From positions 1,488,001-1,552,000 of the forward strand of contig NZ_JANHDH010000001.1 in assembly GCF_026616195.1 (NCBI RefSeq): a stretch of DNA of 64,000 nt, read 5' to 3'. Shown piece after piece: positions 13,381-15,365 of the stretch; the first letter of the stretch is position 1, and the number at the start of each line of letters is the position of its first letter. A program made the position numbers and the translations under genes. Source of the DNA: Haloarchaeobius amylolyticus. GTDB lineage: Archaea > Halobacteriota > Halobacteria > Halobacteriales > Natrialbaceae. The notes beneath the pieces are model-generated. The model made no database searches and had not been told where the DNA came from. It saw only the letters and a list, made by a program, of their open reading frames with translations.

Positions 13381-13851
13381 CTATGTGCGGATGGGTCTGC
13401 CGCAGCGACAGAGGACCCACCACGCATCGTCGATACCCTGCCCGTTCGCGTCACCGGGTTCCTCGTCCCCAGCGAAGCGGTAGAGCGGCCACCCCTCGGC
13501 GGTCACCTGCGTCTGGCCGTCGGCGCGTTCGATGGTCGCGACGCTGGCGGTGACCGTCGAGGCCACCGAGACGCTGGCCTCGCCCGCGACGGTCAGCGGC
13601 GGCCAGGCATCCGTACACCCGCCGGTACAGGCGCTCTCGCCGCTTCCCTGCGTGTCCGCCTCGAACATGTAGAGGGTCATCCCGTCACCGTCGACGAGGA
13701 CCGGCTCGCCGATACCCGCGACGGTCCCGGTCTGGAGCGTCGAGGTGCCGGACGCCAGCTGGGACGTCCTGGCGGCCGCGACGCTGGCGAGTCCGGTGAC
13801 ACCGAGCGATGCAGCGCTCGCGAGCAGTACCGACCGACGTGTGTACGTCAT
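13381..13851 (-). CDS. Exported COG4315-type repeat protein (no lipobox)
   Basis: Predicted 156 aa. The N-terminus TRRSVLLASAASLGVTGLAS is a Tat-like signal ending in AAA without a lipobox Cys. The mature part has the secreted repeat family usually called Lipoprotein_15/COG4315: GMTLYMFEADTQGSGESAC, GGCTDAWPPLTV, and the second half GWPLYRFAGDEEPGDANGQG then DDAWWVL. The family function is unknown. A paralogue (14402-14980) lies on the other side of tRNA-Leu; the two share the motif order SGESAC-GGC-AWPPLTV. It converges with the ferredoxin gene. Confidence 0.75.
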   Translation of the reverse strand: MTYTRRSVLLASAASLGVTGLASVAAARTSQLASGTSTLQTGTVAGIGEPVLVDGDGMTLYMFEADTQGSGESACTGGCTDAWPPLTVAGEASVSVASTVTASVATIERADGQTQVTAEGWPLYRFAGDEEPGDANGQGIDDAWWVLCRCGRPIRT

Positions 13852-13965
13852 GCGAGTGCTAGGCGATGGGCACTGAAAGCGATTTTTTCGCCTGCGCCCG
13901 ACAGTCGTCTCGAATCGAGAATCGAACTGGGTAGTTCACGCGGGTGAGGGCACTCGGCTCGTAAG

Positions 13966-13982
13966 CGAAACCGATTTCATAC
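13966..13982 (+). promoter_or_regulatory. Promoter (BRE and TATA) of tRNA-Leu
   Basis: CGAAACC followed by GATTTCATA is centred about 28 bases before the tRNA 5' end, the spacing expected for archaeal RNA polymerase. Confidence 0.45.
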
Positions 13983-14005
13983 GGGGTCGACAACCGACTG
14001 ACTGC

Positions 14006-14090
14006 GCGAGGGTGGCTGAGCCTGGCCAAAAGCGGCGGACTTAAGATCCGCTCCTGTAGAGGTTCGCGGGTTCGAATCCTGCCCCTCGCA
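14006..14090 (+). tRNA. tRNA-Leu (anticodon UAA)
   Basis: An 85-base class II tRNA. The acceptor arms GCGAGGG and CCCTCGC pair perfectly, with discriminator A at 14090; the CCA is not encoded. The anticodon stem GCGGA/TCCGC encloses loop CTTAAGA, giving anticodon TAA at 14042-14044, which reads UUA. The long variable arm expected of leucine tRNA lies between the anticodon and T stems. The T-arm contains GGTTCGAATCC. No intron is seen. Its 3' flank holds two inverted copies of its own T-arm sequence. Confidence 0.95.
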
Positions 14091-14098
14091 TACCGTCT

Positions 14099-14360
14099 CG
14101 AACGCCAGTGAGAGACGTGTATGCGACACGGGAGGATTCGAACCAGGGAGGTCGCGCGCAGCGAAGCGAGCACGTCCGACCGTGGTTCGAATCCTGCCCC
14201 GCAGGCGGATTCTGGTGCCGCGAACGCCAGTGAGAGACGTATATGCGAGCAAAGGATTCGAACCAGGGAGCAGCTTCGCTGCGACCGTGGTTCGAATCCT
14301 GCCCGCCTGCGTGAACCGGGAGTCGTCTCGAGCGACACCAGCGAGAGACACACCTACGAA
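14099..14360. repeat. tRNA-flanking repeat array with inverted T-arm copies
   Basis: Two full units follow the tRNA. Each starts with a 28-base block beginning CGAACGCCAGTGAGAGACGT (14099-14126 and 14221-14248, one mismatch). Each then has AGGATTCGAACCA and its exact inverse TGGTTCGAATCCT (14133-14145 with 14183-14195; 14253-14265 with 14288-14300). The right arms continue into CCTGCCC, copying the 3' part of the tRNA (14069-14085). A degenerate third block lies at 14329-14360. The second unit has a tight GCAGC-TTC-GCTGC hairpin in its loop. No plausible gene is present; reading frames here translate only the repeat. Confidence 0.8.
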
Positions 14361-14401
14361 CACGCAACCACCAAGAAAACCACCGCGAGAAGCAACAGCC
14401 C

Positions 14402-14980
14402 TCAGTAGTAGCCGTCCGTCGTCGTCTCCTCACCGCCGCCGGTCGTGGTGTCGGTCCCGCCCCCGCGAACCGGCGTCCCGTCGGGACGCAGGACCCACCA
14501 CACGTCGTTGACGGCCTGGCCGGTGGCGTCGCCGGGGGAGCCGTCGTTGGCGTAGTAGTACAGCGGCCAGCCGGCGGCGGCGACCTGCATCGTGCCGTCG
14601 CCGCGGTCGAACGTCGAGAGGCTGGCGGAGACGCCGTCGCCGGCCGTGGCCTCGCCGTCGACGGTGAGGGGCGGCCACGCGCTGGCACAGCCGCCGGAGC
14701 AGGCGCTCTCGCCGCTGCCCTTGCTGTCCTGGTCGAACATGTAGAGGGTCATACCCTCGGGGCCGACGAGGATGTCGCCGAGGTCCGGGTGGGAGCGGAC
14801 CTGGACGGTCGGGCCCATCATCGACGTCCCGGTGTCGGTGGCTGTCTGGGTATCGGTCGTGGTCTGCGTGTCGGTCTGCGTGTCCGTGTCGGTGCCGGCA
14901 CCGGCGTCGTCGCCGAGGCAGCCGGCGAGTGCCAGTGCGGAGGCGGACGCGGCGAGCAGGGACCGTCGTGTGCGAACCAT
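14402..14980 (-). CDS. Exported COG4315-type lipoprotein
   Basis: Predicted 192 aa. The N-terminus MVRTRRSLLAAS has a twin-arginine pair, a hydrophobic stretch and the lipobox ALAGC. A Thr/Asp-rich linker (residues about 27-55) separates the anchor from the COG4315-type domain: GMTLYMFDQDSKGSGESAC, GGCASAWPPLTV, then GWPLYYYANDGSPGDATGQ and NDVWWVL. A Gly/Thr-rich tail ends the protein. ATG at 14980 is chosen; the upstream frame has no signal logic. A 21-base motif shared with the neighbouring DUF7521-like gene lies 46-66 bases upstream, suggesting shared control. Function unknown. Confidence 0.8.
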   Translation of the reverse strand: MVRTRRSLLAASASALALAGCLGDDAGAGTDTDTQTDTQTTTDTQTATDTGTSMMGPTVQVRSHPDLGDILVGPEGMTLYMFDQDSKGSGESACSGGCASAWPPLTVDGEATAGDGVSASLSTFDRGDGTMQVAAAGWPLYYYANDGSPGDATGQAVNDVWWVLRPDGTPVRGGGTDTTTGGGEETTTDGYY

Positions 14981-15025
14981 ACGCAGGGAAAGGACCAGTG
15001 ACGGAAAAGTGGTTTTCCGAACTGC

Positions 15026-15046
15026 GTCCAAAATTCGTCCCGAATC
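15026..15046. repeat. Copy 1 of a 21-base direct repeat (candidate operator)
   Basis: TCCAAAATTCGTCC with flanks matches copy 2 at 15400-15420 in 20 of 21 positions. It sits upstream of the 14980 lipoprotein start on the minus strand. Confidence 0.5.
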
Positions 15047-15062
15047 GCCCGCGTCTCTTGGG

Positions 15063-15365
15063 CTATCGCAGCGTGAGGTTGGCGATGAACGCGAGCGCGA
15101 CCAGTTCGAGGGCACAGAGCAGGGTCACGCCGACCTGCACGTCGGTTCCCGCGGCCCGGAACCAGCCGATGAAGTCGGGGTGGAGGAGGTAGAAGTAGAG
15201 CCAGAGCGCGTTCTCGACGAGGAGGAACGCGGCGAACACGAGGTAGCCGAGGGTGTGGCGGGCGCCGTGGCGGCGGTAGTTCCCGAGCCAGACCCACCCG
15301 AGGGCGAGCAGGAGCACGGCGTTCGCCCCCGCGGCGATGCGGGCGGCCTCGAGCCACAGGGTCAT
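15063..15365 (-). CDS. Four-helix membrane protein, DUF7521-like
   Basis: Predicted 100 aa with about three to four hydrophobic helices. A YRR motif after helix 1 is shared with the protein at 50546-50824, and both have exactly 29 residues before it when this one starts at ATG 15365. A TATA box (CCTATATC on the minus strand, about 15386-15393) lies about 25 bases upstream, fitting a leaderless start. An alternative ATG at 15422 overlaps the stop of the upstream HTH gene as ATGA and would give 119 aa. It probably works with that HTH protein as a membrane sensor or partner; this is inference. Confidence 0.7.
   Translation of the reverse strand: MTLWLEAARIAAGANAVLLLALGWVWLGNYRRHGARHTLGYLVFAAFLLVENALWLYFYLLHPDFIGWFRAAGTDVQVGVTLLCALELVALAFIANLTLR

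Follow-up and report, generated by a model that had tools for sequence, protein, structure and literature searches.

Two-hairpin units ending in copies of the tRNA 3' end form tandem arrays behind tRNA genes of Halobacteria

The window analyzed here, a 64,000-nucleotide stretch of the Haloarchaeobius amylolyticus genome, carries a tRNA-Leu(TAA) gene at 14006..14090 on the plus strand (ARAGORN, Rfam RF00005), which hosts a repeat array in its 3' flank. Two secreted-repeat paralogues (PF03640 Lipoprotein_15) lie on the minus strand on either side of the tRNA, at 13381-13851 and 14402-15115. They had been suspected of marking an old duplication or insertion, and look incidental because units at other loci have different neighbours.

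The block that is copied within the array is the 22-nt tail of the tRNA (14069..14090, G52-N73), delimited by sharp identity edges across 101 units. All parts of the array lie on the plus strand. Unit 1 starts with hairpin 1 (TCGCATACCGTCTC-GAACGCCAGTGA-GAGACG..., 14086..14121; fold, repeat D2), whose stem extends into the tRNA 3' end. It is followed by an inverted copy, imperfect but spanning the entire tRNA tail (14122..14144, from a gapped alignment against the tail complement), by a hairpin 2 module (AGGGAGGTCGCGCGCAGCGAAGCGAGCACGTCCGACCGT, 14145..14183) common to the tRNA-Gly(TCC) unit and others, and by a direct tail copy with a 2-nt deletion near its end (14184..14203). Unit 2 repeats this order with a second leader block as hairpin 1 (14217..14243, the second D2 copy, with a decayed stem), an inverted tail copy (14244..14264, repeat D3), a hairpin 2 module of a short type (AGGGAGCAGCTTCGCTGCGACCGT, 14265..14288), which also occurs behind tRNA-Val in the same genome and in other genomes, and a direct tail copy with a decayed acceptor part (14289..14306). 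The 28-nt leader blocks of the two units (14099-14126 and 14221-14248) are 96% identical, and the arms AGGATTCGAACCA and TGGTTCGAATCCT make up foldbacks at 14133-14195 and 14253-14300. Folded as RNA, the leader of unit 1 forms one hairpin with its stem running into the last tRNA bases, and the T-arms form one long foldback.

The initial annotation had reported two leader-plus-foldback units behind this tRNA and a third, decayed block. Both units are present where it placed them, and the third block is a decayed hairpin 1 at about 14324..14359, where CGTCTCGAGCGACACCAGCGAGAGAC resembles the leader. The T-arm foldbacks were correctly recognized as to their arms; the inverted arm, though, is longer than described and extends beyond the T-arm, being imperfectly complementary to all 22 nt of the tail. 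The best downstream match of the tRNA-Leu(TAA) tail, the copy with the 2-nt deletion, scores 16/20, a value that none of 2000 random 400-nt stretches from the same window reached, and this copy thus exceeds chance for the window. An Rfam scan of 13900-14500 with E up to 1 returned tRNA only, and RtT (RF00391) was absent; a mir-434 match in the same interval was far below cut-off and was dismissed as chance. On the minus strand (13859-14688), antisense open reading frames run across the T-arm foldbacks and give false peptides (AGFEPRS, GRIRT, VRILP).

Further sites were found by a BLAST search of the stretch against its own genome. Units follow tRNA-Gly(TCC), tRNA-Val(TAC), tRNA-Lys(TTT), an apparently intron-bearing tRNA (contig 6) and a tRNA remnant (contig 3), and at all five places they end in the 3' end of their own tRNA. 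On a separate contig (G000 C3:596500-599200) tRNA genes and tRNA remnants are clustered together with tail repeats. A BLAST search against plasmids mainly found tRNA genes. For a systematic survey the last 20 nt of each tRNA were compared with its own flanks, matches of at least 16/20 being counted as copies and lower ones not being counted. The survey covered four Halobacteria in full or in part, with G105 and an outgroup represented by their 30 best-scoring tRNAs each. Downstream own-tail copies were counted at 20/50 tRNAs of the H. amylolyticus genome and, for two species from another family, at 22/42 and 19/44; upstream copies are absent from all three. Pooled over the four Halobacteria, an own-tail copy lies within 400 nt downstream at 81/166 tRNAs and upstream at 0/166. 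In the first three of these genomes, foreign tRNA tails match the same flanks at 2-4% only, and among the 30 best-scoring tRNAs of the methanogen outgroup no own-tail copy was found (0/30). Overall, one to six units stand behind about half of the haloarchaeal tRNA genes.

For the wider search we used a stringent foldback pattern (GGATTYGAACC-N12..42-GGTTCRAATCC) with the backwards pattern as control; a pattern with a gap of up to 20 fails to detect the units. The stringent pattern is present in 54/116 genomes of Halobacteria and in 28/46 genera, with 0 matches of the backwards control, and a phylum-wide draw returned it in 13/26 Halobacteria and in 0/132 other genomes. These counts are underestimates, because one haloarchaeon that lacks any match to the pattern has own-tail copies at 20/30 tRNAs examined. 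The tail-cassette family is therefore probably general in the class Halobacteria. Among the non-redundant haloarchaeal foldbacks, 52/55 sit 18-276 nt 3' of a tRNA on the same strand, so the units are tied to tRNAs and not scattered over random sites. The repeated unit itself is real and tRNA-specific, and the match comprises more than the universal T-loop.

Across loci the units share one order: a T-run with hairpin 1, the imperfect inverted tail, hairpin 2 and the direct 22-nt tail copy (G52 to N73), mostly 90-180 nt in all. Over 101 units, identity of the copied block to the tRNA is 79-100% between G52 and position 73, 25% one base before it and about 50% just after it, where both sides are T-rich. 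The block thus has the constant length (22 nt) and the sharp ends of a target duplication. CCA follows the tail in only 2/101 copies, hence the mature tRNA was not the template, and a retrocopy of a mature tRNA or of a tRNA fragment is ruled out. Of the three origins considered in the initial annotation, a tRNA-derived mobile micro-element is the best supported; its tRNA-derived part, though, is the duplicated target and not the source of the element.

The inverted arm, imperfectly complementary to the whole tail, usually misses a few bases mid-arm and is much less well preserved than the direct copies. An ungapped 15-nt test gave weak specificity only, but a gapped test with the full tail showed clear specificity for the resident tRNA, whose own tail the arm matches better than other tails (Wilcoxon p=3e-16), mirror and direct controls being near zero. 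From the predicted folds we infer that the 5' part of the arm would belong to the stem of hairpin 1 and the 3' part to that of hairpin 2. Both hairpins carry the same type of cap (GA-RC-loop-GY-GA), with GNA in 33/37 three-base loops and a third base C or T in 11/13 four-base loops, which are mostly non-GNRA. The motif GARCG(N1-3)GYGA occurs downstream of tRNAs 134 times in sense and 31 times in antisense orientation (binomial p=2e-16), and upstream 8 vs 6 times. Elsewhere in the window, beyond the units, its frequency is close to the chance level, and a genome-wide abundance of GARCGNAGYGA was rejected as an explanation on this ground. A k-turn, judged by hand, was dropped since the three-base bulge is absent. 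GCGNAGC hairpins are very stable in DNA.

Arm and motif could also be read at the RNA level. In that case the units would be read through from the tRNA promoter and tune termination, 3' processing or tRNA quality control, or else give rise to a small RNA like the one from E. coli tyrT, and the inverted tail would pair with the tRNA's own tail (via hairpin 1) or with its copy (via hairpin 2). The tRNA-specific arm and the strand-biased motif make such a T-arm-pairing trailer, already proposed in the initial annotation, possible. T-runs come after tRNAs and after the copies; behind the last copies at least 3 T in 6 nt are found for 48%, against 9% in the background. T-runs are the main intergenic terminator motif in Haloferax, and two RNA 3' ends lie downstream of tRNA-Pro in H. 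volcanii (PMC7237163), which counts in favour of a trailer. Against it, about half of the tRNAs have no detectable unit, turnover is fast, with unit number and module content varying within a genus next to conserved upstream DNA, and most of the four-base loops do not follow the GNRA rule; moreover, a fixed insertion orientation would yield the same strand bias. We regard a trailer function as unlikely to be the main explanation, though as a serious contender.

The turnover became apparent from a comparison of two genomes of the same genus, G001 and G007, in which unit number and content differ at most tRNAs and the upstream flanks are mostly at least 0.9 identical. At Glu(CTC) and Gly(TCC), G001 has one whole unit plus tail more than G007, at Val(GAC) an extra tRNA-proximal unit is present in G007, and at Ala(GGC) hairpin 2 alone has been swapped with its surroundings kept. 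Behind tRNA-Leu(TAA), five congeners retain a first hairpin of the same type and vary in the hairpin 2 module or in unit count; across families, the copies track the tRNA sequence of their own species. Different tRNA loci of one genome have spacers in common in 99 same-strand pairs vs 1 opposite-strand pair, so that the same element is found at several unrelated sites, as with a MITE-like element that duplicates its target. Many of the longest shared-spacer matches begin close to the spacer start, a few nt away at most. The acceptor sequences that adjoin shared hairpin modules differ between loci. Between Arg(CCG) and Lys(TTT), which share both hairpin modules, the inverted arm is the main difference and departs toward the resident tRNA. 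Foreign tails are almost absent from the units, the tail arms being those of the resident tRNA. Altogether the units look like a fast-moving repeat family with tRNA ends as its home.

Some of this turnover could arise without any dedicated mobility. Forks stalling at hairpins near highly transcribed tRNAs, followed by template switching and short-homology recombination, would copy the tail and exchange modules among loci with a common T-arm core, and gene conversion with the tRNA would keep the sense copies identical. Alternating units within the arrays of Ser(TGA), Lys(TTT) and Met resemble tandem duplications, and both the swap of hairpin 2 at Ala(GGC) and the far better preservation of the direct copies fit such a process. 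What speaks against it are the edges at G52 and position 73, which are sharp and constant in many isotypes, the shared hairpin 1 modules next to locus-differing acceptor sequences, and the restriction to one class within the phylum. We consider this scenario unlikely, and slightly less likely than a trailer.

A third alternative, serial scars of integrase-type elements that use the tRNA 3' end as attachment site, is disfavoured. The copied block, from the T-arm to the 3' end, has the usual extent of a tRNA attachment site, and this part of the integration-scar idea of the initial annotation holds. Duplication of tRNA 3' ends is indeed known from integrative elements of haloarchaea, as illustrated by a 43-nt repeat at tRNA-His of Haloquadratum (PMC3119063). 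In genome G114 (L111:1420-1575) a tRNA-Val tail and its unit persist with no tRNA gene found upstream, the gene having apparently been replaced by other DNA, which would also suit a scar. The fixed two-hairpin anatomy and the short unit length, however, speak against scars, and no haloarchaeal virus with the foldback was found in IMG/VR, where the search returned only non-haloarchaeal tRNA palindromes and ordinary tRNAs. In addition, an exchange of the attachment-site type would bring the donor's tail, so that tails should come from the element family; yet modules are shared behind tRNAs with different acceptor ends and the tails remain those of the resident tRNA. Integrase scars are a highly improbable source of the arrays. 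Among the IMG/VR hits, proviral contigs of 58-65% GC (L196, L198-L201, L203-L205) carry a palindrome of 34-61 nt that is built from a tRNA 3' end (CATGGATTTGAACCATG...) and probably represents an attachment site where two tRNA ends face in opposite directions.

The reading we prefer, to which we give not quite an even chance, is that short non-autonomous cassettes are inserted precisely at the 3' end of tRNAs, where the 22-nt tail is duplicated, and build up arrays by multiplying; the mechanism is one we infer from the repeats. A cassette, reaching from hairpin 1 to hairpin 2, would enter immediately 3' of position 73, and the 22-nt tail would be duplicated. The tRNA would be left intact, the leading T-run of the cassette would become its terminator and the native terminator would be displaced downstream. 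The substrate would probably be a single strand folded on its T-arm and tail arms, on which a recombinase or nuclease supplied in trans would probably act, and the arrays would expand and contract via recombination between the 22-nt direct repeats. Insertion after position 73 with tail duplication predicts sharp edges, a constant 22 nt, modules in one orientation and T-runs both at the spacer start and after the last copy, where they are expected if the native terminator has been displaced. Insertion is supported by sites, e.g. Glu(CTC) and Gly(TCC), that are precisely filled in one of the genomes G001 and G007 and unfilled in the other, but deletion between direct repeats can explain them equally well. 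The search of IMG/VR revealed no enzyme, free form or carrier form. The tRNA-specific inverted arm, finally, is unexplained by plain insertion with target duplication, which therefore needs a further copying step or else selection that maintains pairing, in the DNA, on the folded insertion substrate, or in the RNA, on a trailer. A broader version is more tentative, and we would sooner bet against it than for it: strand-specific folded DNA cassettes for which tRNA 3' ends serve as a universal insertion platform throughout the class, the 22-nt tail being rebuilt at each insertion and about half of the tRNAs being followed by arrays like those of integrons or CRISPR; E. coli tyrT and a planctomycete would offer distant parallels.

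The literature searched, which did not extend to subscription literature, held no description of the haloarchaeal tail-cassette family. The tRNA 3' flanks in all four Halobacteria examined are shaped by one process that was previously visible only as the tyrT oddity, for which there was no explanation, and the origin of tRNA-tail repeats becomes testable in the genetic model Haloferax volcanii. The arrays bear on tRNA termination, on the role of tRNA genes as hot spots of insertion and on genome annotation, where their foldbacks give rise to false antisense ORFs of the type AGFEPRS / VRILP.

Several known systems resemble the arrays in part. Haloarchaeal PATEs and IS605-type elements are likewise short, non-coding and palindromic. 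PATEs, however, make no target duplication (PMC3119063), whereas the units described here show a 22-nt duplication of the tRNA tail and have tRNA ends as their sites, so that they are not PATEs. The cassette arrays of integrons (attC) and other sites that fold as single-stranded DNA offer a further parallel, as a T-arm core in double-stranded form, with a bulged inverted arm, could be restored by folding of the strand; in contrast to integron cassettes, the haloarchaeal cassette is without a gene, no integrase was identified and the tail is specific to the target tRNA. CRISPR arrays and casposons (Cas1 integrases) grow when a short repeat already present is duplicated around the piece that inserts, and casposons insert at tRNA 3' ends. 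The haloarchaeal inserts differ in being shared hairpin modules instead of unique spacers, and it is the tRNA's own tail that serves as the repeat.

The closest known relative is the 178-bp repeats of E. coli tyrT/tyrV (RttR / rtT RNA and the protamine-like tpr). There, too, tandem repeats with a 178-nt period stand directly after the tRNA (L262), and the last 19 nt of the tRNA recur in every copy (19/19). The K-12 region also contains inverted-tail-like stretches (12-14 of 22) and a hairpin, CTCGAGCGCCAGCGAGAG, that is almost identical to the haloarchaeal leader loop and close to the leader of the window, CTCGAACGCCAGTGAGAG. rtT has been linked to the stringent response, and to our knowledge the tyrT repeats have been a single-locus curiosity without an accepted mechanism. 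The haloarchaeal units have the same layout of tandem units after a tRNA, each with its own copy of the 3' end, and E. coli may hold, judging from its sequence, one array of the same kind. There are also differences. tyrT is one locus in the genome examined, whereas the haloarchaeal units occupy tens of loci per genome, extend through one archaeal class and share modules between tRNAs. The tyrT repeats carry a small RNA (RttR) and an ORF (tpr), their hairpins split the T-loop copy and the copy includes CCA. With no Rfam RtT match in the window, the units are likened to rtT and are not members of the RNA family RF00391. In the planctomycete Pla163 (L072:105-1130), six further tail copies (20/22 each) with a 137-nt period lie behind tRNA-Met, and each unit consists of a terminator-like hairpin, an inverted tail, a hairpin and a direct tail. 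The E. coli and planctomycete arrays are either related to the haloarchaeal units or convergent with them. The haloarchaeal arrays are a variant of tRNA-tail repeat arrays, a known kind previously represented by the single locus of E. coli tyrT.
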